A stretch of 64,000 nt of DNA, taken from Maribellus sp. YY47 (lineage in GTDB: Bacteria > Bacteroidota > Bacteroidia > Bacteroidales > Prolixibacteraceae). The notes beneath the pieces are model-generated. The model was not told the origin of the DNA and did not search any database. It saw nothing but the letters and a program-made list of their open reading frames with translations. Shown piece after piece: positions 8,614-56,487 of the stretch (its first letter is position 1; every line of letters starts with the position of its first letter). Made by a program: the position numbers and the translations under genes. Location: NCBI RefSeq assembly GCF_023111095.1, contig NZ_JALGYW010000022.1:1-64000 (forward strand), read 5' to 3'.

Positions 8614-8662
8614 CTGAAAGTGTCGGAGCTTAATAGCCCGGTACGCAGTGCCGGGTTGGGAG
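8614..8662. repeat. Dispersed hairpin element, copy A (partial)
   Basis: CTGAAAGTGTCGGAG followed by a TTAATA spacer and the hairpin CCCGG..CCGGG (8637-8655). The same order with the same spacing recurs at 9397-9442, so these are two diverged copies of one element. No transposase is present nearby. Confidence 0.7.
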
Positions 8663-8766
8663 TGGAAGATGAATCCTCGTCCGGCGGGATGAATAGTTAA
8701 AAGCGCATGTTGCAGTTCCGAACGAAAAGTTGGTGTATTTCATTCGTATGTATTTTAAATTATTCA

Positions 8767-9080
8767 ATGGTCCGTCATCCGACGGATGAAAAATCATTCT
8801 GATATCCTTTGGTGATTCACCACGAAGCGAAAAATTGGTTGAAGAAGGCATGGTGATTTACCACGCCATGAAAAAATGATTTTTCGCGGAATGGCGGATC
8901 ACCACGCGATGAAAAATTGATTCGATATCCTTTGGTGACTTACCAAGAGGTGAAAAATCGGTTGGACAAGGTATGGCGGATCACCACGCGATGAAAAAAT
9001 GTTTTTTTTGGCAATGGTGAATTACCACGCGATGAAAAATCAAATGTTTAACGATGGCTATTCACCACGCCTGATCTTGC
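8767..9080. repeat. 41-bp tandem repeat array, about eight units
   Basis: Units begin at about 8767, 8809, 8850, 8891, 8932, 8973, 9014 and 9054, a near-exact 41-bp period. The best conserved part is TGGTGATTCACCACG followed by GCGATGAAAAAT; the rest varies. Several units contain a short inverted repeat of the GGTGA..TCACC kind, and the first unit has a different palindrome (CATCCG-A-CGGATG) at the same place. There are no unique spacers separating identical repeats, so it is not a CRISPR array. Reading frames across it are not maintained (41 is not a multiple of three). Confidence 0.88.
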
Positions 9081-9269
9081 ATTCGACTGGCAAAATCTTT
9101 TTAATGTTCCGAAAAGAATACACAGAGAAGAAAACAATCATGATCCCGAGAAATCACCAACAATTATGAAAGTGAGGTTTTTCGACAGCATTTTATAACG
9201 AAAGTTAGTTTACAAGGCGCATAAAGCGATTGTGCGTTGAATCACGTATTGATTGCCCCTTTGATCTAC

Positions 9270-9445
9270 TTACATCCCACCCCCGGGTTTCACCCGAGGT
9301 TAATCGTATTTTATCCCTTTGGGATATTGATCAGAATAACAAAGTTAAGACGAGTTAAACGGACAGTGATGTTTGAACCCTTTACTTTCTATGGCACTGA
9401 AAGCGTCGAATGTGATTAACCCGGTGTGTAACGCCGGGCTGAAAT
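9270..9445. repeat. Dispersed hairpin element, copy B (fuller)
   Basis: Three hairpins in a row: CCCGGGT-TTC-ACCCGAG (9282-9298), ATCCC-TTT-GGGAT (9313-9325) and CCCGG..GCCGGG (9420-9438), the last preceded by CTGAAAGCGTCGAA. The final third matches copy A at 8614. This architecture resembles REP-type elements mobilised in trans by RAYT transposases; that link is inference. Confidence 0.65.
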
Positions 9446-9546
9446 AATCGAAGGGAAATCGTCCGGAAAGGGTAGTTGATCATAGACTGACAGGACTTCC
9501 GGACGAAAAATAGCTGTCCTTCTTTGATCGATTTTCACAGGAAAAA

Positions 9547-9572
9547 GGAGGTGAACTCACCTCCTCTTTTGT
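9547..9572. terminator. Intrinsic terminator hairpin GGAGGTGA-AC-TCACCTCC
   Basis: A perfect 8-bp stem. On the plus strand it is followed by TCTTTTG; on the minus strand by TTTTTCC. The minus-strand reading fits as the end of the hydrolase transcript and the gene tail at 9586. Confidence 0.8.
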
Positions 9573-9585
9573 TTGTTGCAGCTTA

Positions 9586-9666
9586 CTATTCGTTAGTCAA
9601 AAACTTTGCGATTTCGGGTCGTGCTTTCTGAATACGTTCCTGGTCGATGGTAAGTGCCGTATTGAC
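9586..9666 (-). pseudogene. Tail of a lost gene (26 codons, no start)
   Basis: Read on the minus strand, 26 codons give a protein-like tail (ending RPEIAKFLTNE) closed by tandem TAG TAA stops and followed by the terminator at 9547. There is no start codon: an in-frame TAG precedes the first codon. It begins only 7 bp after the hydrolase stop. This looks like the C-terminus of a gene whose body was deleted, with the hydrolase now next to its terminator. I do not recognise the protein. Confidence 0.5.
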
Positions 9667-9673
9667 CTAAATT

Positions 9674-10909
9674 TTAAATTTCTCCGTCTCTTAGTTGAAT
9701 AAACCAGGCTATGGCTGCAAGTTCTGCCGGCATAATGGCACTGGTGTGGTCTAAGCCGTTAAGTGGTGCTAAGGTAACCAAATCTGTACTGACGCCTTTC
9801 CCTATAAATTGTTGGTACAAATCAGAACTTAGAACAGGCGGAACATAAGTATCAGCAGTTCCGTGAAGAAGCAGAGTGGGGATATTGGTGTTGTATCCTT
9901 CAATACTGTTTTCTTCCATCATCGTGCGCAGCGAGGCAAAAGTTTCGCTGGTTTTCCAGTTCGCCATAAAATTGGGTTGAAAAAGATCGGAAACAACAGT
10001 TGTAAGTTCTGAATTGATTTGTGATCCCGAATGATTTCCATCAAATAGCCCCGATATTTTAGCGGCATATTCTTCCTGAAATACTGAGTCGATGGGAGTT
10101 TCCATATCGAGTTCTGCATAGCTGTTATACAGGTAAGCCAGAAAATAAGGCATGGGGTATTCGGGTTGGCTTGTTACCAGTTCCGTTACAGTTGAAATAT
10201 CATAAGGTCCTGCACCGCATGCGCTGGCTTTCAGTTTGAATTCATTTGAATAGTTGGTTTCGATTGCCTTTTGAAGCTGCAGGGTTACCCATCCTCCCTG
10301 CGAGTAGCCGGTGATGTACAAATCGTTGCTCAGCGTAACCGAACTTTTTCCCTCAACAAATTCTTTTACTGCCCGTAGCATGTCAGCTACCGACTTAACC
10401 GTAGATTCTGCATGCAGGTAAGGGTGAAACATATCATCAGAAGCGCCAAAACCCAGGTAGTCGGGTATGGCTATCACAAAGCCGGAGGAAGCCATCATTT
10501 CAAGCTTCTGAAATAAATCACCGTTCGGATTTTCAGAAGGCGCTGCACTGTGCAGGGTATTGGTACCGTTCTGGAAACTCATCAGCGGGTAAGTTCCGGC
10601 TGCTGTTGGAAGGCATACCAAACCTGAAGCAACAACAGCTTCTCCCTCAAAAGTGGTATTGTAGGTTATTTTGTACACTTCCACTCCCGAAGTAAATTTG
10701 TCGGTAATCGCTGAAATTTCAGGGTAAAGTAATGCAGCCACATTCATGTTTGCACTGATAACGCTCTGTTGATAAGCTACAACAAAGTTTTCTTCCACCA
10801 GGTATTCGTTTTCGGTTCCGTCAACTTTTTCATCGTCAAAACGGTCACAGGCAGAGAAGGCGATACTTATCAGGATGAAAAGCAGTAAGGGTTGTAACAG
10901 ATCTTTCAT
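9674..10909 (-). CDS. Secreted alpha/beta hydrolase lipoprotein
   Basis: A 411-aa serine hydrolase. Residues 1-21 are a lipoprotein signal with lipobox FSAC. The predicted triad is S203 in GYSQGG, D353 in HGTADTYV and H388 in LDHTS. The long, lid-bearing layout resembles bacterial secretory lipases and prolyl-oligopeptidase-like esterases, so an ester or lipid substrate outside the cytoplasm is likely but not defined. It stands alone on the minus strand and diverges from the ThuA-like gene, sharing the 200-bp gap between them. Confidence 0.8.
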   Translation of the reverse strand: MKDLLQPLLLFILISIAFSACDRFDDEKVDGTENEYLVEENFVVAYQQSVISANMNVAALLYPEISAITDKFTSGVEVYKITYNTTFEGEAVVASGLVCLPTAAGTYPLMSFQNGTNTLHSAAPSENPNGDLFQKLEMMASSGFVIAIPDYLGFGASDDMFHPYLHAESTVKSVADMLRAVKEFVEGKSSVTLSNDLYITGYSQGGWVTLQLQKAIETNYSNEFKLKASACGAGPYDISTVTELVTSQPEYPMPYFLAYLYNSYAELDMETPIDSVFQEEYAAKISGLFDGNHSGSQINSELTTVVSDLFQPNFMANWKTSETFASLRTMMEENSIEGYNTNIPTLLLHGTADTYVPPVLSSDLYQQFIGKGVSTDLVTLAPLNGLDHTSAIMPAELAAIAWFIQLRDGEI

Positions 10910-11109
10910 GGCAAAATGTTTTCAATAAGGTTACTTCAAAAATAGGCTAAATTATTGTTTAATGGAAGGGGATGGCAAACAGAATGCAATTTGTGGTATT
11001 TTGGATACGCGATGCTTTCGGCAATCTTTTCTTTGGTTTGATTTTTTTATTTTCGTTGCATCAAAGATTCAGTTCGAAATATAATTTTGTTTGGTAAAAT
11101 ATTGACCCA

Positions 11110-11817
11110 ATGAAAAGACTTTTACTTGTATCTGCTTTTGTTGCGATTTATTTTTCGGTGGTTGCGCAGCCCATTAAGGTAATGCTGGTTACCGGCGGCC
11201 ACGACTTTGAGGCACAACCGTTTTTCGAAATGTTTGACGCGATGGAAGGTGTAGAGTACGAACATTACGAGCAACCTTCAGCTAATCAAAAAATTGCAAA
11301 AGATCATGCCAAAGATTTCGATGTGATTGTATTCTATGATATGTGGGATAAGATTGGTTTGACAGAACGAGAGGCCTATCGCCAGATGGGGGAGCAGGGC
11401 AAACCGTTTTTGTTTCTTCACCATTCGCTGGCTTCTTATCAGCAGTGGCCCGAGTTTGAGCAAATTATCGGAGGAAAATACGTTGAGAAAAGAACGGGGA
11501 TAGATGAAGAAGAAGCATCAACTTATGAGCATGATGTGTGGGTATATTGCAATGTGGAAAATTATACTTCTGTGACACGCGGTTTTCGGGAGCTTCGTTT
11601 TTTTGATGAAGTTTACGGGAACGTCAGGATTTCAGATAAGGTATTGCCCTTGTTGAGTACCCGGCACCCCAAAAGTATGGAATATGTTGCCTGGGAAAAC
11701 CGGTATCGAAACTCCAGAGTGATCTACATTCAGCCGGGACACGACAATCGCACTTACGCAGAGGCCGATTACCGGAAACTCATTTTACAGGCTATACATT
11801 ATCTCTCGGGAAAATAG
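11110..11817 (+). CDS. Secreted ThuA-like domain protein
   Basis: A 235-aa protein with a cleavable signal peptide (ending near VVAQ) and a ThuA-like fold: VMLVTGGHDFE at the first strand, FYDMWDK, FLFLHHSLASYQQWPEF in the middle, and HDVWVY then YIQPGHDNRTY towards the end. ThuA-like domains are glutamine-amidotransferase-like folds associated with sugar utilisation; enzymatic activity is generally undefined. A TAATTTTG element at 11082-11089 matches the -7 consensus about 20 bp upstream of the ATG. A perfect 18-bp palindrome lies 41 bp after the stop. Confidence 0.8.
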   Translation: MKRLLLVSAFVAIYFSVVAQPIKVMLVTGGHDFEAQPFFEMFDAMEGVEYEHYEQPSANQKIAKDHAKDFDVIVFYDMWDKIGLTEREAYRQMGEQGKPFLFLHHSLASYQQWPEFEQIIGGKYVEKRTGIDEEEASTYEHDVWVYCNVENYTSVTRGFRELRFFDEVYGNVRISDKVLPLLSTRHPKSMEYVAWENRYRNSRVIYIQPGHDNRTYAEADYRKLILQAIHYLSGK

Positions 11818-11858
11818 AGGTTGCGCTAAGTCGTTTTGTAGGCAATTAGTGCGATTTT

Positions 11859-11876
11859 TTGGCATCCGGATGCCAA
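11859..11876. other. Perfect 18-bp palindrome
   Basis: TTGGCATCCGGATGCCAA is fully self-complementary with no loop. It lies after the ThuA-like gene and 160 bp before the next start. No T-run follows, so an operator is as likely as a transcript end. Confidence 0.5.
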
Positions 11877-12036
11877 TTCCCAACCAAAATACCGAGACTT
11901 CATCGGAATTAATTGGAATCTGCTCGATAACATAGACTTATAACGTTTTTTAACATTCTGGTGTTAATTAAAGAGGACCTACGACTATTTTTTTAGTTAA
12001 TTTAGACGGCATACAAACCCAATTAACTTGCATGAT

Positions 12037-12408
12037 ATGAAAACTGTTGCCAAGTTAATCCACCAATCCAACATGACATATATTCCTACGAACCTTCCGG
12101 TAAAATTTTTTGGGCTTCCGGATGGTAAAGTCTATTTATTGTATGCCCGATTTTGTATCATCAGGCCCGAAAAAACAGACCTGGAATTTGTGATTGCGGA
12201 ACACGATGAGTTTTCTTTCGATTATGCATCGGAGAAACTGGTTCCGAAAGCAGAAACGCGTTATCCTGTATATCGCGAGATGGTTGATAAGCCGAATCCG
12301 GTTTATCATATTTTAGATATTAATCGCGATGTTAAATCTTATGCTGAAGCAGTAGCTTTGCTGAATCAAAAAGCGATCAAGATGTCGCTTCACCCGGAGG
12401 CCTGTTAA
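12037..12408 (+). CDS. Hypothetical small cytoplasmic protein
   Basis: About 123 aa, not recognised. It has no signal peptide or membrane segment. Composition and codon use look real: alternating hydrophobic strands (VKFFGLPDGKVYLLYARF), acidic stretches and a C-terminal helix. The ATG at 12037 is preferred to an in-frame TTG at 12028. It has its own 220-bp upstream region and no partner gene close by, so it gives no functional clue. Confidence 0.6.
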   Translation: MKTVAKLIHQSNMTYIPTNLPVKFFGLPDGKVYLLYARFCIIRPEKTDLEFVIAEHDEFSFDYASEKLVPKAETRYPVYREMVDKPNPVYHILDINRDVKSYAEAVALLNQKAIKMSLHPEAC

Positions 12409-12674
12409 CATTAAAATAGGCTATAGAATCTTTATTTATACCATAACCTGCATCAGGAAACATTTGCAGGTAGAATAACTTTTTACCCCAAACAAAGCAA
12501 ATCTCTTTATTTCTTTTTCTTTTTCCCCGGATCAAATTTGTGGCTAACCCTTTTTTGAAAGAGTAAAAGTATGACAGCGCATCGTCGCTGGCAACAAAAG
12601 GAAGCAATCTATTGATCTGGAATTATTTTAAGCCAAAAATGTATGGGAAAATCTAAAAAAAAGTGAGAAAAAAC
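12409..12674. other. Intergenic stretch, nothing recognised
   Basis: AT-rich sequence without a credible gene or hairpin. A 76-codon minus-strand open frame crossing the end of the preceding gene has no family features. The small RNA unit begins immediately after this stretch, and 12787-12958 beyond it is also empty. Confidence 0.5.
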
Positions 12675-12705
12675 TTTGTGTAGAATCCATTTTTATTTAG
12701 ATTTG
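12675..12705 (+). promoter_or_regulatory. Consensus Bacteroidota promoter for the small RNA
   Basis: TTTG at 12675-12678, exactly 19 bp, then TAGATTTG at 12698-12705. This matches the sigma-A(Bfr) consensus TTTG-N19/20-TAnnTTTG at every fixed position, and predicts a start near 12710-12712. Confidence 0.85.
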
Positions 12706-12709
12706 TGTC

Positions 12710-12786
12710 ATAGGTCGTTCTGACCTATTGTGTGTTTGGGGGTTAACATTTTAAAGGGCAGTTGTTGAACTGCCCTTTCTTTTTGA
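12710..12786 (+). ncRNA. Candidate small RNA, about 75 nt
   Basis: The predicted transcript begins with a perfect hairpin ATAGGTC-gttct-GACCTAT (12710-12728), continues with about 24 unpaired nt including a G-run (GTTTGGGGGTTAAC), and ends in a perfect 11-bp terminator hairpin AAAGGGCAGTT-GTTG-AACTGCCCTTT (12753-12778) with T-tail. A full consensus promoter lies at the right distance. It contains no ATG. The downstream gene is on the opposite strand, so this is not a leader or attenuator. I do not recognise the family. Confidence 0.75.
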
Positions 12787-12958
12787 ATAAATCTCAATGG
12801 TAACATTTTTTCAAAACATTATTTACATAATAGTTGGTTCTGACGTTCAATAAATTACTTGAAAATTAGAGCAGGCGAGCTTATCTTTTTGTTTAATTTC
12901 AGGGAATTCCTTTGCCTGAACAACGATATCGTAACAGAATTATTAAAATAATGCACTG

Positions 12959-14428
12959 CTAGCGAATGGCAGGAGAATCTGTTTCTGCAGGTTTTGCCTG
13001 TTTTCGAGAGATTATATCAATGGCAACAATCATGGCGGTAAAACCCCAGAAGGGAACAGAAAGCTTGTCGGTGTCCAGGAAGTTATTCAAAAATCCGTGT
13101 AAATAATAGGTGACCAGCCCCAGAAAAGCGACCAAAACAATCTTTTTTAATCTCGGATCGGCTGCTCTGGAATAAGTGGTTATAGCGGTGTAAGTTATCG
13201 TACCTAGAATCAGCAAAAAGGTGAGTAATCCCAATAAGCCCGATTCGGACAACGGTCCCAGGTATTCGCTGTGCGCATTTCCCCCGTCCGCAGCATTGGT
13301 ACTGATAATGGTGCGGTCTTTGGTTAGCTGGTAGGGGGCATATTGAAACATATAGGTTCCCGGGCCAAATCCCAAAACGGGTTTGTCCTCGAACATTCTT
13401 ATGGCGCAACTCCAGCGGTTAATACGTTCCAGGTTTGATGCATCAGACGAGATATTCGACATCGATGAAATGTGTGTGCCTAAATTGGCAGACGACTCGT
13501 GAGAGTTTTGCTCCAGCTTCATCAGTATCTGTTGTTGAAACGTAAAAAAAATCAGAGCAGCAGAGAACACGGTAATAAGAATGGTTTTGAACCTGATCTT
13601 TAAGAGTAAAATAAACCACAGTCCGATTGATGCCACCAGGCTCAACCAAGCGGCCCGGCTGTATGAAAGGATAAACCCCATCAGCACCACTAAAAAAGCA
13701 AACGTTGCAAATGTACGCCATTTTTTTTCCAGACTTTTATCGAGCACAAACATCAGTAAAAAGGGCAAATAGAAGGCAAGGGAAGCTCCGTACGAAGTGT
13801 GGTCGTTGTAGAACGGTGCAACTACAAAATGAGCCGCCTGTTTATCCCATAATCCATAGCCCAGATGGCGAAATGTTGCATAAAAAATTACTCCCATAAA
13901 CGGCACCACATACAGCCAAACATATTTTTCCATATGCTTGCCTTGCGAGAAGAGTTTAGCGGTAAGGAAATAGAATATCGCCACAAACCAGATTCTCATC
14001 AACAGAAACTTAAACGAGACCAGTGGCATAGTGCTGGTGATACTGGTGACCAGTATCCAGAACAAATTCAGATAAACAGCCAGCGACACCGGGTGCCAAA
14101 ATATTTTTTTATCAAATTTCCGCTTCTGTAGTACTTTAAGCAAAAAAACAATTAAGAGCCCAAAAATTAAGGGTTCGGTGGGCAGGTCCATGTCAAATCC
14201 AAATCCGGGAATAAGTTTCCGGAGGGGGATCGATAGCGGAGTAAAAAATACGATGAGGTAGATAATCTTGTCAAAGGAATAAACAGCAACGAGCAACAGC
14301 AGGAATACTAATGGAAGCACGTTTAAATACAGCATGTGCTTGTTTACCACCAACCAAAGGTTCAACAAGATAAAGCCAACCGAGATGAGGTAAAAAAAGG
14401 AAATTCTTATTTGGTTGCTTTTGAACAC
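12959..14428 (-). CDS. O-antigen ligase/polymerase family membrane protein
   Basis: About 490 aa, with twelve or so predicted membrane segments and one large outer loop (residues about 300-400). The loop ends in VLGFGPGTYMFQYAPY and then NAHSEYLGPLSESGLLG, the Wzy_C signature of O-antigen ligases and polymerases with its conserved His. The Wzz-like gene ends at 14434. The longer frame from 14518 overlaps that gene, so a GTG at 14428, six bases after its stop, is the likelier start. With its Wzz partner it suggests export-coupled assembly of a surface polysaccharide. Confidence 0.8.
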   Translation of the reverse strand: MFKSNQIRISFFYLISVGFILLNLWLVVNKHMLYLNVLPLVFLLLLVAVYSFDKIIYLIVFFTPLSIPLRKLIPGFGFDMDLPTEPLIFGLLIVFLLKVLQKRKFDKKIFWHPVSLAVYLNLFWILVTSITSTMPLVSFKFLLMRIWFVAIFYFLTAKLFSQGKHMEKYVWLYVVPFMGVIFYATFRHLGYGLWDKQAAHFVVAPFYNDHTSYGASLAFYLPFLLMFVLDKSLEKKWRTFATFAFLVVLMGFILSYSRAAWLSLVASIGLWFILLLKIRFKTILITVFSAALIFFTFQQQILMKLEQNSHESSANLGTHISSMSNISSDASNLERINRWSCAIRMFEDKPVLGFGPGTYMFQYAPYQLTKDRTIISTNAADGGNAHSEYLGPLSESGLLGLLTFLLILGTITYTAITTYSRAADPRLKKIVLVAFLGLVTYYLHGFLNNFLDTDKLSVPFWGFTAMIVAIDIISRKQAKPAETDSPAIR

Positions 14429-42436: not shown

Positions 42437-44260
42437 TTATATTAATTCAAACTCATGAATTTCAAGTTTCATTTTTTCTTTTGTGGATTCTTGGTCGGAA
42501 CTAATTTGGAGCGCATTTGCCACCGCTTCTGAAATGTCCAGAACTTTTAGATTTGGATGGCGTGAGAATGTCTTTTTACACATCGGACAGGCAGTTGCCA
42601 GCACATCCGGGCGATAGCGCAAATAATCTTCCACCGCTTGGTTACGAAGCAGCGAACGTTCGACCTGTGAAATTTTCAGGTTCCCCAAACTACCTCCACA
42701 GCAGTGTGCCATGTGCTTTTCATTTTTAATGGGAATTACTTTTCCTGTGGTCCGCAGCACTTCCCGCGGTGGTTCATACATGCCCATTCCGCGTCCCAGT
42801 TCGCAGGGATCATGATAAATTATCCGATCCGAACCTTTTTTCAGTGCGATGATTTCTTGTTGAAGGAGGTTTAAGATATATTCGGCATGAAACACTACTT
42901 CCACATTTGCGAGTTCATAATCTTCTTTGAAAACCTTGTAGCAAATGGGGCAGGAAACGACCAGCTTTTTTGCTCCCGAGCCAATTATTTTTCGGGTGTT
43001 GTTGGCAATCAGTTTCGAAGCTGCTTCGTATTGTCCGGCCAGCATCAAAGGGCGGCCGCAACAAGGTGCTTTTTCCTCGTCCATAAACCACACATTTTCA
43101 CCGGCCAGATGGAAAAGCTTTTTCATAGAAGCAATAATTCCTGGGGTGAGATGAGTCATACATCCGGCAAAATAAACCGTGTCTGCTTTGGGGACAGGGC
43201 CATCTTCCAGGTATTTGTAAGAGGAATTGTACTGCCGGGTAGATTCAATACGCTGGGTAATTCGCAGGTCGATGGTGTTGATTCCTACCGGGCAGTCAAC
43301 CTCGCATTTTCCACAAAGCAGACAGTTAAAAAGTTGTTCGTCGGAGAGATTGTGGTTGCGGATGTTTTTCAGAATGTACACCGATTGCGTGTTGTTTATC
43401 CCGGCCGCCGATAGCTGGCAATTGTCAAGACACAACCCGCAGCGCGAGCACGAAAACACCTGGATGTTGGTGTAAGTATTGTTTCGTTTTTTTAGTTTGA
43501 CGCCTGCATTCCGAACAAAAATCAATAATATCTCCGTGGGGATGTGCATGTAACGCGAATTGGGCAAAGCGGCAAAAAAGAATCCCAGCGAGCAGGAATA
43601 GGCGGTCCAAAGTGAAAGGTTGGCCGTTTCTGAGTTCAGGTTGCCAAAAATGTGACCAAGAGTGGAAGTCAGAAAACTACCATTTCCGTACAAACCGGCC
43701 GACATTCCTTCGGATAAAAGCCGCAAGGGAAAAATCATCCAAAGTGAGAGTAAGGCAATCCGGTCGCCGGTTTTTAACCGGGTGGTTTTTTTCATCCCAA
43801 AGAGTTTTTTCTTGAATCTTTTTAGCAGAGCCAGTGCAACTCCTGAAAGAACAAACAGCAGTAACAAATCCATCAGAAATGAAAAAATACCGGATAACAT
43901 GAAAGAATGATCCGTTTCGAAATAGCGAAAAAATACGGGGAGATAAATGGGTGCAATTAATGATTGCCGGGAAACCATCACTTCAATGTGCCCGACAACA
44001 ATCAGCAAAAACCAGCCAAAAGCGAGACTCATGTGCATGTAACCCAGTACCGGGTTTTTCCTGAAAATTTTGCGATGCAGAAGTCCTTCCATAAAAACTT
44101 CTTTGATGGAATCAAAAAAACGCCGGGTTTTGAAAGAGTGTATCAGCCGCAGTTTATCAAGCCTCGACAAGCCGCCAACCCATTTTACAACGCGAAATCC
44201 CAGAATTCCGAGGAGGTAGATAAAGCCAATGCTAAAGGGAAGGATGATGAGCTTTTCCAT
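42437..44260 (-). CDS. Membrane HdrE/HdrD-like fusion with Fe-S and two CCG domains
   Basis: About 607 aa. An N-terminal membrane part with about five helices and several His resembles the NarI/DsrM/HdrE cytochrome b type. It is followed by two [4Fe-4S] motifs (CSRCGLCLDNC, CLLCGKCEVDCPVG) and two CCG domains: FAGC..APCCGRP..SCPIC and HDPC..HCCGGSLG..ACPMC. CCG domains hold the non-cubane disulfide-reducing clusters of HdrB/HdrD. This is the likely quinone-linked end of the complex. ATG 44260 overlaps the preceding stop by one base (TAATG); a longer frame upstream is an artefact of that overlap. Confidence 0.82.
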   Translation of the reverse strand: MEKLIILPFSIGFIYLLGILGFRVVKWVGGLSRLDKLRLIHSFKTRRFFDSIKEVFMEGLLHRKIFRKNPVLGYMHMSLAFGWFLLIVVGHIEVMVSRQSLIAPIYLPVFFRYFETDHSFMLSGIFSFLMDLLLLFVLSGVALALLKRFKKKLFGMKKTTRLKTGDRIALLSLWMIFPLRLLSEGMSAGLYGNGSFLTSTLGHIFGNLNSETANLSLWTAYSCSLGFFFAALPNSRYMHIPTEILLIFVRNAGVKLKKRNNTYTNIQVFSCSRCGLCLDNCQLSAAGINNTQSVYILKNIRNHNLSDEQLFNCLLCGKCEVDCPVGINTIDLRITQRIESTRQYNSSYKYLEDGPVPKADTVYFAGCMTHLTPGIIASMKKLFHLAGENVWFMDEEKAPCCGRPLMLAGQYEAASKLIANNTRKIIGSGAKKLVVSCPICYKVFKEDYELANVEVVFHAEYILNLLQQEIIALKKGSDRIIYHDPCELGRGMGMYEPPREVLRTTGKVIPIKNEKHMAHCCGGSLGNLKISQVERSLLRNQAVEDYLRYRPDVLATACPMCKKTFSRHPNLKVLDISEAVANALQISSDQESTKEKMKLEIHEFELI

Positions 44261-44610
44261 TATGCGGTTGTATTTTCGTTTTTCAGCATGGCAATGCGCT
44301 TTTTGATCAGCAGAATCACGTTCCGGATATTGATGTCGCGCGGACAAACCAGTGTGCATTTCCCGCAAAACATACATTTCTGGATTTCTTCGGAGAGTTT
44401 TTCTGTTTCGCCGCGGCGCAGCCACAGCCCGATTTTGCGAACATTGAAATTGGTCAGGTTACCGGCGCTGCAGGTTGCTGTGCAGCCTCCGCACGAAATA
44501 CAGGTAAAAAACGATGGTTCGTATTTTAGCACATAAAGCAGCAGCCGGTCGTCGAAATTATCGAAATCGATCTGACGGGAAGCAGGTTTTAAAAAGCTGA
44601 GATCGTTCAT
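44260..44610 (-). CDS. HdrC-like ferredoxin subunit (short)
   Basis: A 116-aa protein with two [4Fe-4S] motifs, CISCGGCTATC (about residues 37-47) and CMFCGKCTLVCPRD (about 80-93), in the spacing of HdrC and QmoC. It should pass electrons between the flavoprotein and the membrane subunit. It overlaps the HdrA-like gene by 4 bp (ATGA). Confidence 0.82.
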   Translation of the reverse strand: MNDLSFLKPASRQIDFDNFDDRLLLYVLKYEPSFFTCISCGGCTATCSAGNLTNFNVRKIGLWLRRGETEKLSEEIQKCMFCGKCTLVCPRDINIRNVILLIKKRIAMLKNENTTA

Positions 44611-45641
44611 GGTCTGCGGTTTTCAAAAAAGTGAATGATTTCTGTTGCAGCCGACCGCGCGTTTTCGAGCGTTTCGTTCACAGCCATTGGGCAAATTGCG
44701 GTGCCGGTCATAAAAATTCCCTCTTGCGTGCTTTGGTTGCGGGCGCAGTGCATGTTGGCCGATTTCAGAAAACCGTTTTCATCCACGGTCATTTGGTTTT
44801 TCTGAATCAGCTGCGAAGTGGATACTCCCGGTTCCATTCCCACCAAAAGTATCACCATGTCAACCGTCATCCGAAGCGGACGGCCCTGAAGCGTGTCTTC
44901 AGCTTTGATCTGAATGCTTTTGTCGGCGCGCTCGGCAGCCTCGGATAAACGGCCCCGGATAAACTGGATTTTATGGCGTTTCTGAGCTTGTAGGTACAGG
45001 CTGTCGAACTTTGATCCGTACAAACGCAGGTCCATGTAAAAGCAAAAAACTTCGCAGTCGGGCAGCATTTCGCTGATTTCGATGGCCTGTTTTATCCCGG
45101 TGATGCAACAAACTTTCGAACAGTAAGTATTGCCAACTTTGGCATCGCGCGAGCCTACACAATGGATAATGGCAACCCGCTTGGGTGCTGTTCCCTGAAT
45201 GGTGTGCAGCTGGCCGTGTTTCTTCATCCGTTTCTCAAAATCAACCGATGTAATCACATTCCCAAACAACCCGTAACCGTATTCTTCTTTAATAGTGGCA
45301 TCAAAAACATTAAAGCCAGAAGCTACCAACACGGCATCTGCAAAAAAACGGACATCCTGGTTGGCCCGTAATTCGAAGCGTTTCCCGTTTCGTTCAATCC
45401 GGCTGATTTCGGTATTGCAAACAGTGTTTACTCCGCTGTCTTTTGTTTTATTCGCCAGCGAATTCACCAGTTCATCGGGCGACGAAAAATCGGGGAAAAG
45501 ATGATCCCAATCGTTTAGTTTGCCGCCTGTGTTTGCCTGTTTTTCAATCAGTGTCACTTTCAGTCCCTGCCGGGCAAGTACCGAAGCGGCCTCCATTCCG
45601 GCAATTCCTCCGCCAATAACAGCTACATGTTTGTTGTTCAC
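44607..45641 (-). CDS. HdrA/QmoA-like FAD subunit
   Basis: A 344-aa flavoprotein with an N-terminal FAD motif VAVIGGGIAGMEAA and the HdrA hallmark CVGSRDA...YCSKVCC (C161, C174, C178, C179), which binds a [4Fe-4S] cluster near the FAD. It ends with GIFMTGTAICPMAVNETLENA, as in HdrA and QmoA. It is shorter than methanogen HdrA, with no N- or C-terminal ferredoxin inserts, so it is nearer the QmoA type. It lies 66 bp after the HdrB-like gene. Confidence 0.85.
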   Translation of the reverse strand: MNNKHVAVIGGGIAGMEAASVLARQGLKVTLIEKQANTGGKLNDWDHLFPDFSSPDELVNSLANKTKDSGVNTVCNTEISRIERNGKRFELRANQDVRFFADAVLVASGFNVFDATIKEEYGYGLFGNVITSVDFEKRMKKHGQLHTIQGTAPKRVAIIHCVGSRDAKVGNTYCSKVCCITGIKQAIEISEMLPDCEVFCFYMDLRLYGSKFDSLYLQAQKRHKIQFIRGRLSEAAERADKSIQIKAEDTLQGRPLRMTVDMVILLVGMEPGVSTSQLIQKNQMTVDENGFLKSANMHCARNQSTQEGIFMTGTAICPMAVNETLENARSAATEIIHFFENRRP

Positions 45642-45706
45642 CCTCTTCGTTTTTTATGTTTTCAACTGGTTTTACATGCAATCACATCAACCCACTCAAT
45701 CTGTAT

Positions 45707-46792
45707 TCAATCTTGTTTTGCTAAACAACCTGTAAATTCAGGTTCGTTAATGTATTGTCCCCTAACGCCTGTAAATTTTTGTTTCGGATCATATTCAACT
45801 CCTATTTTGTTCAAAAGGGGCTCTACATCAATCTGGTGCATTTGCAAGCCAATGTCCTTCCAAGGATCGTAACCCAGCACCAGTCCTGCAAGTTCTTCGT
45901 GTGAAAGCACAGGGATGCCGTTTTCGCCTCCGTAAACTTTTCCCTCAATTTGTGCCAGTGCATATTGCCAGCGGTCGAGAAACATGTTGCAGCCGGGGCA
46001 ATTGGTCAGAATCATATCGGGCTGATACGGTTTCATGCTTTCAAATTTTTTGCGCGAGTTGGAAATGGAATAGCTTCGGTTGTTTTTTACGAGGTAATGC
46101 CGGAATCCAAAACCACAGCAATGCCGGCGTTCCGGATAATCGACCGCTTCTCCGCCCCAGGCTTCGATCATTCCGGTGAGTACGCGCGAATATTCAGAGC
46201 CGCCCACACCTTTCTCGGGAAAGATTTTAGCATAGTGGCACCCGATATGGTCCACTATTTTCAGCGGTTCTCCTGTTTCTTTATTGATCAAGCGGTATCG
46301 TGCCTGTGTCGCAATTTCTTTTCTGAAATGGTAAATAATGTCACAGGCGTGGGAAAGATTCTCCGGTATTTCAAACGTTCTTCCTGTGGCTTTTAACAGG
46401 TTTTCGCGGGTTTTCTCCAGTTCTTCAGGGAATTCTTTCCAGGTGGAAAGTACCTCGTTGTAGCCGCCAAACGACGTAATGCACGACACTGCGCAGTTTT
46501 TGTAACCGCGTTCCGTCATAAGCGAAAACTGCCGGGCTACCATGGATTGAAAGGTTTCGAAAGGCACAATGTCGGAATGATAGCCGATCCCCGAGCAAGT
46601 GGTGTGATGTGGATCGTCGTAAACCTCTTTCCGCAGCTTATTTTGAAGGATGGACAAAAATACTTTTTCAGCTCCCGGATTAAAGTTTTGCCGGATGCAA
46701 CTTCTCAAATAAAAGAACTTGTTGTCAGCAATTTCCTTGTTGTATTCGCTCCAGCGTATTTTGGTTTTTGTTTCCATGTTTGGCTTATTCAT
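45707..46792 (-). CDS. HdrB-like CCG-domain subunit
   Basis: A 361-aa protein with two CCG domains. The second is canonical: HIGCHYA, RRHCCGFG, NCPGCN. The first is degenerate: RSCIRQ, TTCSG (only one of the CC pair) and SCITS (second Cys lost). One intact non-cubane cluster is therefore expected rather than the two of methanogen HdrB. It overlaps the upstream HdrC-like gene by 8 bp. Confidence 0.8.
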   Translation of the reverse strand: MNKPNMETKTKIRWSEYNKEIADNKFFYLRSCIRQNFNPGAEKVFLSILQNKLRKEVYDDPHHTTCSGIGYHSDIVPFETFQSMVARQFSLMTERGYKNCAVSCITSFGGYNEVLSTWKEFPEELEKTRENLLKATGRTFEIPENLSHACDIIYHFRKEIATQARYRLINKETGEPLKIVDHIGCHYAKIFPEKGVGGSEYSRVLTGMIEAWGGEAVDYPERRHCCGFGFRHYLVKNNRSYSISNSRKKFESMKPYQPDMILTNCPGCNMFLDRWQYALAQIEGKVYGGENGIPVLSHEELAGLVLGYDPWKDIGLQMHQIDVEPLLNKIGVEYDPKQKFTGVRGQYINEPEFTGCLAKQD

Positions 46793-47480
46793 TCAGTAGA
46801 TACTGCGTGTATTTTTCCATGTCAGCTTCGCCGTTTGGGTCAGTCAATCCCAGTTCAATTGCTTTTCGTTGACTGAAATACTCAATGGTTTGATAGAGTT
46901 TTAAGCCTCCACTTACCTCAAATATCTGGTGAAGTTCATCCAGATCTTTATCGCTGATTTTTCGCAGGGCGCCGGGGCCATCACCATCGAGGTTGGCGCC
47001 CACCGACGCATACACTTCCTGCATGTTTTCGTATATCCAGCGCCAAACCGGCCCCTGTTCCGGATGGGTAGCCGGAACGAGGGAAGTTGGATGGACACAG
47101 TAGCCAAACTGGAGGAGGTTTGCGCCAATGGTTTTGACGATTAAATACTGCTGACGGCCCATCCGGCTTTTTATAAAAGCGCCGGTTTCCTGGGAGAGTT
47201 TGCGTAGCACACTGATGATGAGTCCGGGACAGTTGTTGCGGGGGCAGCGTGTTTTGCACGACATACACTGGCCACAGTACCAGATGGTATCGCTTTGGAG
47301 CAGCGCTGCAATTTTTTCTTCGTTTCCCGATTGAACGGTGATGGCAATGCTTCTCGGGTCGTATTCGTAAAACTCGGCCGCCGGACAAATGGCTGTACAA
47401 ATTCCGCAGTTCATGCAGGCCTGCAGCCCTTCTTCCAGCCGTACATCCGCTTTTAATCTTTGGTTTAAATCTGAATACAT
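46785..47480 (-). CDS. HdrC-like ferredoxin subunit (long)
   Basis: A 231-aa protein with two [4Fe-4S] motifs in the N-terminal half: CMNCGICTAICPAA (about 22-35) and CGQCMSCKTRCPRNNCPG (about 69-86). The C-terminal 110 residues lack cysteine-rich motifs and may contact HdrB. It is the first gene of the five-gene minus-strand operon. A palindromic operator candidate lies 71-92 bp upstream. Confidence 0.83.
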   Translation of the reverse strand: MYSDLNQRLKADVRLEEGLQACMNCGICTAICPAAEFYEYDPRSIAITVQSGNEEKIAALLQSDTIWYCGQCMSCKTRCPRNNCPGLIISVLRKLSQETGAFIKSRMGRQQYLIVKTIGANLLQFGYCVHPTSLVPATHPEQGPVWRWIYENMQEVYASVGANLDGDGPGALRKISDKDLDELHQIFEVSGGLKLYQTIEYFSQRKAIELGLTDPNGEADMEKYTQYLLNE

Positions 47481-47536
47481 AAAAACTGCCTGTATTTTGC
47501 AAAGCTTGGCAAATACCGACAGTTTTAAAACCGCTG

Positions 47537-47572
47537 ATATACGTATTCTGAACTACGTTTATATACGTAGTT
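47537..47572 (-). promoter_or_regulatory. Palindromic operator candidate upstream of the Hdr-like operon
   Basis: AACTACGT-N6-ACGTAGTT (47551-47572) is a perfect 8-bp inverted repeat, and ATATACGTA occurs twice as a direct repeat 24 bp apart (47537 and 47561). The 5-6-5 geometry (TACGT-N6-ACGTA) resembles Crp/Fnr-family sites. It lies 71-92 bp before the first Hdr start codon, suitable for an activator. Confidence 0.6.
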
Positions 47573-56237: not shown

Positions 56238-56312
56238 GGGCGATTAGCTCAGTTGGTTCAGAGCATCTGGTTTACACCCAGAGGGTCGGCGGTTCGAATC
56301 CGTCATCGCCCA
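56238..56312 (+). tRNA. tRNA-Val (anticodon TAC), copy 1
   Basis: A 75-nt cloverleaf: acceptor arms GGGCGAT/ATCGCCC with discriminator A, D-arm GCTC..GAGC, anticodon arm TCTGG-TTTACAC-CCAGA (TAC reads GUA and related Val codons), T-arm with GGTTCGAATCC. CCA is not encoded. Confidence 0.96.
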
Positions 56313-56408
56313 CAAAAAAGGTTGATCCGTTTTATGACGGACGGCCTTTTTTGGTTTAACTGTCCTTTCGGTAAGGAAGGAGACGTTCAGCAATAGAGAA
56401 TAATTTTC

Positions 56409-56483
56409 GGGCGATTAGCTCAGTTGGTTCAGAGCATCTGGTTTACACCCAGAGGGTCGGCGGTTCGAATCCGTCATCGCCCA
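56409..56483 (+). tRNA. tRNA-Val (anticodon TAC), copy 2
   Basis: Identical over all 75 nt to copy 1, beginning 171 bp downstream. Its upstream flank (GAAGGAG..CGTTCAG..TTTTCGGG) repeats the flank of copy 1 with small changes, so the unit was duplicated in tandem. No separate promoter is apparent; it is probably co-transcribed with copy 1. Confidence 0.96.
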
Positions 56484-56487
56484 CAAA

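Follow-up and report, generated by a model that had tools for sequence, protein, structure and literature searches.

A heterodisulfide reductase-like operon of Maribellus sp. YY47 as a candidate source of sulfite for sulfonolipid synthesis in Bacteroidales

Among the described complexes built from heterodisulfide reductase (Hdr) subunits, the closest to the system reported here include the sulfur-oxidizing Hdr-like (sHdr) complexes. Their genes form clusters of the type hdrC1B1A-hyp-hdrC2B2; in the passages of the literature cited here, sulfite is their proposed product (PMC6335251, PMC12345210, PMC10332631), and they depend on LbpA (PMC6067878, PMC10332631). The stretch of Maribellus sp. YY47 that we analyzed (64,000 nucleotides of contig NZ_JALGYW010000022.1, hereafter the window) carries a five-gene Hdr-type operon that resembles the sHdr clusters of Hyphomicrobium and Acidithiobacillus in its C1-B1-A-...-C2-B2 order, in a short, FAD-only HdrA, and in its proposed product, sulfite. 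The N-terminal site of HdrB is modified in both, and the CxTSFG motif found there also occurs in an HdrB encoded on an Acidithiobacillus plasmid. The operon differs in that a membrane HdrE-HdrD fusion (ED) stands at the position of HdrB2 and in that the role proposed for the Bacteroidales complex is lipid biosynthesis, not lithotrophy. Our reading, to which we give a probability of roughly 0.6 on the basis of sequence comparisons, is that the complex is a menaquinone-linked sulfur oxidase supplying sulfite for cysteate and sulfonolipids.

The five genes run head to tail on the minus strand in the order HdrC1-HdrB-HdrA-HdrC2-ED (47480-42437; Table 1). Pfam and NCBIfam place all five products in the heterodisulfide-reductase superfamily, far under the cut-offs of the curated models of methanogen Hdr, QmoC, DsrK, and the like. 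An earlier reading made from the letters of this DNA (the sequence-only reading) had described a five-gene Hdr-like operon with a membrane arm, and all five open reading frames (ORFs) were found. Its overlaps of 8, 4, and 1 bp are correct (HdrC1/HdrB −8, HdrA/HdrC2 −4, HdrC2/ED −1 bp), whereas the HdrB/HdrA gap that it gave as 66 bp is +65 bp.

Cysteine conservation was followed through alignments of 60-110 sequences per subunit, which include the window and in which some genomes occur twice (once per search). The cysteines assigned to cubane or CCG sites are invariant in the alignments of all subunits. HdrC1 has two 4Fe-4S sites (C22, C25, C28, C32 and C69, C72, C75, C79; pairing not resolved), with all 8 site cysteines in 60/60 sequences and C128 in 59/60, and a long conserved C-terminal part. 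HdrC2 keeps 8/8 cysteines in 106/106 sequences. HdrA consists of a single FAD domain with one 4Fe-4S motif (C161, C174, C178, C179), kept in 102/102 sequences, and has no extra ferredoxin domains. With phmmer, its residues 4-335 matched residues 2-336 of Protein Data Bank (PDB) entry 6tjr, a full-length match to what we take to be the sHdrA of Hyphomicrobium denitrificans, whereas methanogen HdrA matched in two separate pieces.

In HdrB, the C-terminal CCG site is complete (C185, C225, C226, C265, C268). The N-terminal site holds C32, C66, and C104 only, around the CxTSFG motif (3/5 cysteines in 62/62 sequences), the second cysteine of CC and the final one of CxxC being absent; altogether, 8 cysteines of HdrB are invariant in 62/62. 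C268 lies at the position of the HdrB bridging residue Cys234, and S107 replaces the bridging Cys81 (both residues as given in the cited part of PMC13083937). The best Foldseek matches of the HdrB model (pLDDT 81; low at 1-18, 187-199, and 229-240) were the HdrB chains 8rvy_B and 5odc_B, with a TM score of 0.69. ED (model pLDDT 87) combines membrane helices carrying the conserved H62, H76, and H239 with two 4Fe-4S sites and two complete CCG sites, whose 8 cubane and 10 CCG cysteines are invariant in 110/110 sequences. The complete CCG cysteine sets are therefore three, the C-terminal one of HdrB and both of ED; together with the FAD/pyridine-nucleotide fold recognized by Pfam in HdrA, they bear out the three intact CCG sites and the FAD of the sequence-only reading.

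ED shares membrane helices, conserved histidines, and two cubane plus two CCG sites with HdrDE and with EtfD/EMO. Its best fold match in Foldseek was mycobacterial EtfD (9ojn; E 5e-20, TM 0.68, rmsd 8.8), and its invariant H76 and H239 lie at nearly the same residue numbers as the heme-b ligands His78 and His241 given for EtfD in the cited part of PMC13083937. Such likeness would suit an EtfD/EMO-like complex that passes electrons from a flavoprotein, for example from acyl-CoA oxidation, to menaquinone, an explanation that we regard as very improbable. In the same part of PMC13083937, Thr539 and His583 of EtfD stand where Hdr has or uses cysteine, whereas in ED C401, C440, C521, and C561 are all present, I439 lies at the EtfD His583 position, and both Hdr-type bridging cysteines, C440 and C561, are kept. 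Furthermore, ED accompanies an HdrABC-like soluble part, whereas EtfD is described in the passages cited without HdrA, HdrB, or HdrC partners, and no ETF gene was recognized by eye among the window ORFs, the rest of the genome not having been searched for ETF. EtfD is described there as reducing menaquinone (PMC13083937), and the earlier claim of a soluble HdrABC-like part joined to a quinone-type HdrE/HdrD arm agrees both with this best fold match and with the conservation of the set.

The methanogen HdrABC(-MvhAGD/Elp/Fdh) systems have the HdrA, HdrB, and HdrC folds and the CCG clusters in common with the YY47 set, but the YY47 HdrA is short (NF041778/NF040770 far below cut-off), its HdrB has only one complete CCG site, and the scores reached 244 bits against a cut-off of 1100 for HdrA2, 138 against 450 for HdrB, and 91 against 350 for HdrC. 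MvhD and Flx, which the sequence-only reading had reported as lacking, were not recognized by eye beside the operon. QmoABC and DsrMK have HdrA- and HdrE-type subunits linked to menaquinone. The YY47 set resembles them in these subunits and differs in having one HdrA only and in scoring far below the cut-offs of the qmoC and DsrK models (QmoC: HdrC1 48/300, HdrC2 24/300 bits); no apr, sat, or dsr genes were recognized by eye beside the operon. A plasmid operon of Picosynechococcus sp. PCC 7003 (NZ_CP016476.1; L180, the letters L, G, and C before a number designating loci, genomes, and YY47 contigs) has the order C1-B-A-C2-B2, an HdrA 43% and an HdrB 41% identical to those of YY47, and CxTSFG in HdrB. 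It differs in having a soluble B2 and an FAD protein instead of the membrane fusion, and it is annotated by general names only. The FAD protein gave its best match, far below cut-off, to a sulfide:quinone reductase model.

A scan of named genomes returned 118 relatives of ED, and we analyzed the best 80 of the 118, all Bacteroidota by title. The complete five-gene order on one strand was found in 61 of these 80 loci, and 13 more are cut by contig ends; the HdrA-HdrC2 gap has a median of 2 nt and exceeds 250 nt in 2/61. HdrA-HdrC2-ED occurs without adjoining HdrC1-HdrB in five loci (L109, L135, L136, L138, and L139) and ED alone in L122; in the genomes of these loci and of L129, HdrB lies elsewhere in 7/7. 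The closest named relatives in the scan were two Maribellus genomes, with 92% identity over ED. In a sample of the order, ED was present at E ≤ 1e-40 in 90/295 Bacteroidales genomes, and in a sample of the phylum (296 genomes, three of them Bacteroidales) the sole full-length ED match was the window's own. The sequence-only reading had proposed to look for the same gene order across Bacteroidota and to list conserved neighbors; the order is there, and the neighbors include cysteate synthase and SulA.

Standalone HdrC1-HdrB modules were also seen. In L194, L196, L197, and L199, they occur with DUF134, Nitro_FeMo-Co (NifX-like), and/or Mrp/MinD P-loop ATPase genes (assigned with Pfam in L196 and, as regards the ATPase, in L197, and by clustering in the others). 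The L196 module also has a pyridine-nucleotide disulfide reductase-rhodanese gene beside it, the L195 module has none of these neighbors, and the L198 module is followed by HdrA. The genome of Bacteroidales bacterium CF encodes HdrB twice.

Sulfonolipids are outer-membrane lipids of Bacteroidota, with Alistipes and Odoribacter as the most prominent gut producers in the cited passages of PMC9304779 and PMC5591296. Their synthesis is described, in portions of PMC9304779, PMC11211663, and PMC10191378, as proceeding through cysteate synthase, SulA/CapB, and then 3-ketocapnine reductase, and part of PMC12713407 has cysteate synthase adding sulfite. In 19 of the best 80 loci, ED is followed on its own strand by a cysteate synthase gene. 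This is the gene right after ED in 18/19, within 51 nt in 17 and at about 280 nt in L142, and a single ORF separates the two in L135. All 19 enzymes score 530-593 bits to Maribellus sp. YY47's own cysteate synthase, and the 6/19 tested with TIGR03844 were all over cut-off.

A SulA-type enzyme is clustered with Hdr in six loci (L106, L107, L200/G435, L201/G402, L202/G336, and L221/G375). In L106, genes for a SulA-type enzyme, a PALP enzyme, an SDR, and a VOC protein come after the operon, and L107 starts in the same way before its contig ends. L200 reads Hdr-SulA, L201 reads SulA-PALP-C1-B-A-C2-ED, and L202 reads SulA-PALP-C1-B-A-C2-ED-SDR. In L221, the order is SulA-PALP-SDR-VOC-C1-C2-ED-B-A, reshuffled with the gene set retained, which speaks for selection on the set. 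The L106 SulA-type enzyme scored 612 bits to 7u7h (deposited as a 7-keto-8-aminopelargonate synthetase-like enzyme and presumably the Alistipes SulA), 560 to 28eh (deposited as cysteate-C-fatty acyltransferase), and 247 to serine palmitoyltransferase 3a2b. We infer that the PALP enzyme is a CapA-like cysteate synthase. The L106 PALP enzyme, initially clustered as a cysteate synthase, was rejected as a member of that type (124/325 bits to cysteate synthase, 156/303 to threonine synthase) and is excluded from the 19. In a FastTree tree of 86 ED sequences, which drew several long-branch warnings and in which seven ED rows with too-short flanks are unlabeled, all 19 rows linked to cysteate synthase group in one clade, and the six linked to SulA group in a second one together with the unlinked L120.

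Some neighbors recur in these clusters (Table 1). The VOC/glyoxalase-superfamily protein, possibly a lipid-modifying enzyme, accompanies SulA-PALP in clusters of both kinds, those with Hdr and those with CysH (Pfam tested in L221). A methionine-gamma-lyase-like gene lies right after ED in L117 and L118 (509/550 bits to TIGR01328 in L117, below cut-off) and is a possible sulfur donor route. In one Hdr-locus subclade (L126 and counterparts), a SulP-type sulfate permease with a STAS domain comes after cysteate synthase.

In the reaction sequence that we propose, the complex would oxidize sulfane or thiol sulfur, its presumed donor, to sulfite at a site provided by HdrB and/or the CCG pair of ED. 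Electrons would travel via HdrC/HdrA/HdrC2, over Fe-S clusters and FAD, into the membrane arm ED and there from the cubane clusters to heme b and menaquinone. The presumed product would be consumed by cysteate synthase (phosphoserine + sulfite → cysteate), and SulA would condense cysteate into sulfonolipids. Hdr would thereby replace adenylylsulfate/phosphoadenylylsulfate (APS/PAPS) reductase, CysH, or in many genomes act as a second route beside it, and its role would be biosynthetic, allowing sulfonolipids to be built without the usual sulfate-reduction enzymes. With E0′ values of about −116 mV for sulfite/sulfide and about −74 mV for menaquinone, sulfur could donate electrons to menaquinone as long as the level of sulfite stays low. 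The sequence-only reading had coupled a thiol/disulfide or low-potential carrier to the quinone pool. The idea of a sulfur or thiol to quinone link stands, but a generic heterodisulfide or a low-potential carrier is an improbable partner; gene clusters and co-occurrence connect the complex with the making of cysteate and sulfonolipids and so refine the claim towards sulfite supply. The word sulfite is absent from the main texts of the sulfonolipid papers PMC9304779, PMC11211663, and PMC10191378. In the portions of the literature covered by our searches, preprints not included, heterodisulfide reductase and sulfonolipid were never found together, and no assignment of the Bacteroidales gene set was found.

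Next, we assessed co-occurrence in the 295 Bacteroidales genomes of the order sample, of which 90 are positive for Hdr (ED threshold as above), 209 for SulA (E ≤ 1e-90), 182 for CysH (over the curated cut-off, 37 weaker rows being counted absent), and 81 for TIGR03844. The sphingolipid sister enzyme serine palmitoyltransferase (Spt; NF047600) served as a control and was scored positive at E ≤ 1e-130 in 100 genomes (87 over cut-off). PALP, the second cysteate-synthase type, was scored at E ≤ 1e-100 in a draw of 213 genomes, assumed to include G296-G413, and is present in 40/213. All counts assume that genome labels are identical across the separate searches. Going by the family codes, G296-G413 were taken as single representatives of their families (118 genomes, with G366 belonging to the same family as the window); removing 29 genomes below 95% completeness and keeping those without a listed value left 89 representatives. 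The P values account only partly for ancestry.

SulA was present in 84/90 Hdr+ versus 125/205 Hdr− genomes (odds ratio (OR) 9.0, p = 2e-9), in 36/38 versus 52/80 with one genome per family (OR 9.7, p = 5e-4), and in 34/36 versus 34/53 of the 89 filtered representatives (p = 8e-4). Dividing the genomes by CysH confined this tie to those lacking it, where SulA occurs in 29/30 Hdr+ versus 18/83 Hdr− genomes and, per family, in 14/14 versus 9/28 (p = 3e-5); in CysH+ genomes, there was no Hdr-SulA association (55/60 versus 107/122, p = 0.6; per family 22/24 versus 43/52, p = 0.5). This is the pattern expected of two interchangeable suppliers. Either Hdr or CysH is present in 191/209 SulA+ genomes and in 21/86 SulA− genomes, 65 of the latter having neither. 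SulA is missing from six Hdr+ genomes (G317, G331, G450, G458, G520, and G541), and PALP is present in two of them, G317 and G331. Spt showed no association with Hdr (OR 0.72, p = 0.29; per family 0.74, p = 0.53); because it is itself negatively associated with SulA (OR 0.18) and with CysH (OR 0.25), it controls the Hdr side only. SulA and cysteate synthase are found in all four sampled genomes of the window's family, with only Hdr in G366, only CysH in G469 and G561, and both Hdr and CysH in YY47.

CysHDN converts sulfate to sulfite. The Hdr-less loci L223 (G398) and L224 (G356) contain a SulA-PALP region with CysH, CysD, CysN, CysQ, a CitMHS/DASS-type transporter, and the same VOC protein as the Hdr clusters, and in the Hdr-less L222 (G379) CysH adjoins SulA. 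The four Cys proteins of L223 are over the NCBIfam cut-offs; in L224, only CysH was tested, and the rest are assigned by likeness and order. L222-L224, like L200-L202, were chosen because coordinates already placed the genes close together and are not a random sample. In a few genomes, CysH(DN) thus stands in a SulA cluster related to those with Hdr, which suggests that Hdr replaces a sulfite-making module in the latter. Hdr and CysH lie within 12 kb of each other in 0/50 cases.

Several observations weigh against our reading, both here and in the comparison with sHdr below. Physical linkage is rare: SulA, PALP, or cysteate synthase comes within 12 kb of ED in only 7/90 Hdr+ genomes (G435, G402, G336, G375, G478, G303, and G517), SulA coordinates being available for 61/90. 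Among the genomes with coordinates (103 and 20 pairs examined), only 6 have CysH at 12 kb or less from SulA or PALP, and Hdr is present elsewhere in three of these (G460, G583, and G317). The linkage labels on the ED tree need three changes, which puts linkage in two places of the tree and leaves two gains indistinguishable from one old linkage with losses. The window's ED falls in a third part of the tree, without sulfonolipid neighbors, and the YY47 copy is unlinked, with Hdr on contig C15, SulA on C6, cysteate synthase on C43, and CysH on C54. The sequence-only reading had noted no sign of methanogenesis or sulfate reduction in the window; as regards sulfur metabolism, this holds inside the window but not for the genome. 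CysH is present not only in YY47 but also in 55/84 Hdr+SulA+ genomes, and 18/209 SulA+ genomes have neither Hdr nor CysH. Exclusion between Hdr and CysH among SulA+ genomes is modest (Hdr in 29/47 CysH− versus 55/162 CysH+, p = 0.001) and weakens to p = 0.029 per family and p = 0.061 in the 89 filtered representatives. The association of Hdr with TIGR03844 alone is weak (32/90, p = 0.047; per family 12/38, p = 0.51), and 18/36 Hdr+SulA+ family representatives have neither of the cysteate-synthase types searched. The SulA neighborhoods of 16 of those 18, some on very short contigs, were examined for a third cysteate synthase, and phmmer gave no match to either type.

That most copies, the window's included, lie away from sulfonolipid genes is in keeping with a quinone-linked thiol/disulfide or low-potential-carrier oxidoreductase of general redox metabolism, whose linkage to sulfonolipid genes would reflect hitch-hiking or a shared anaerobic lifestyle. 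The fold and motifs of heterodisulfide reductases and the two bridging cysteines kept in ED agree with it as well. We nevertheless consider such a general role unlikely, as it fails to predict a SulA dependence confined to CysH− genomes, the absence of an Spt association, and cysteate-pathway linkage at two places of the ED tree. Homology and co-occurrence suggest that the unlinked YY47 copy does the same sulfite-supplying job as the linked ones.

With respect to sHdr, no gene for sHdrH stands between HdrA and HdrC2 in the window (it was not sought elsewhere in the genome), LbpA was not recognized in a PF01597 search of the YY47 genome, and TusA (PF01206) was found in 0/4 genomes (G000, G375, G402, and G336). 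Since neither LbpA nor TusA was found, sulfur delivery would differ from that of sHdr, and with sHdrH, LbpA, and TusA all missing from these searches, the set is a relative of the sHdr-LbpA system rather than a member. The same findings speak against a dissimilatory, energy-conserving sHdr-type complex in which reduced sulfur would be an extra donor to the menaquinone pool and lipid sulfite a by-product. The chemistry would be the same, the short HdrA is like 6tjr, CxTSFG is common to the Acidithiobacillus plasmid HdrB, which lies a few genes from a GcvH-like gene, and the standalone module of L196 adjoins the disulfide reductase-rhodanese gene; the SulA tie when CysH is absent, however, points to biosynthesis, and we judge the dissimilatory role quite improbable. 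In YY47, PF01597 picked out an ordinary GcvH (E 9e-47) and, at a distance from hdr, two H-domains with membrane anchors, whose lysine is off what we take to be the GcvH spacing. These two proteins lie with ferredoxin-like and NrfD-like genes (by eye), then a sensor kinase and a response regulator, in a cluster that may encode an odd H-domain electron-transfer complex (Table 1).

Around the operon, its end is followed by a TPP riboswitch upstream of a gene for a TonB-type receptor, which suggests thiamine uptake. Response regulator and histidine-kinase-like genes (named by eye) adjoin HdrC1 in 10 loci, a matter of regulation, not function. A link to the NhaP antiporter adjoining the operon was rejected, as it recurs in L066 only among the relatives. 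In a promoter scan, whose models do not cover Bacteroidota promoters, promoter-like matches were under the shuffled mean and terminator-like matches near it. The window also holds two tRNA-Val(TAC) genes 95 bp apart.

Table 1. Coordinates of the Hdr operon and of other features mentioned in the text
Feature	Location	Strand	Description
HdrC1	window 46785..47480	−	231 aa; Fer4 dicluster (Pfam); NF041779 HdrC 91 bits (cut-off 350)
HdrB	window 45707..46792	−	361 aa; CCG domains (Pfam)
HdrA, short form	window 44607..45641	−	344 aa, GTG start; FAD/pyridine-nucleotide fold (Pfam)
HdrC2, small two-cluster ferredoxin-like subunit	window 44260..44610	−	116 aa; Fer4 dicluster (Pfam)
ED, HdrE-HdrD fusion	window 42437..44260	−	607 aa; membrane helices; Fer4 dicluster and CCG domains (Pfam)
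TPP riboswitch	window 42307-42210	−	Rfam RF00059, 67.5 bits
TonB-type receptor	window 42168-39724		named by eye
Two tRNA-Val(TAC) genes	window 56238-56484	+	
VOC protein	L221:7169-8239, L106:15361-16455, L223:10962-12065, L224:7237-8331		
Methionine-gamma-lyase-like gene	L117:11812-12999, L118:11825-13009		
SulP-type sulfate permease	L126:13105-14877		STAS domain
Two H-domain proteins	L185 (YY47 C12:262500-282400), 8621-13169	−	238 aa and 563-aa fusion with a binding-protein-like part
Picosynechococcus operon	L180, 10065-15805		

Taken one step further, at odds that we place only slightly above even, many Bacteroidales would oxidize sulfur anaerobically through a menaquinone-linked Hdr complex for the sole purpose of providing cysteate and sulfonolipid synthesis with sulfite, using a biosynthetic sHdr-type branch with a membrane HdrDE arm and a donor other than LbpA. 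If this is true, the making of an outer-membrane lipid would be coupled to the respiratory chain, and sulfate would not be needed for it. An uncharacterized complex, whose ED subunit is present in nearly a third of the order genomes (90/295), would gain a product, and a biosynthetic role would be added to Hdr-type sulfur oxidation.

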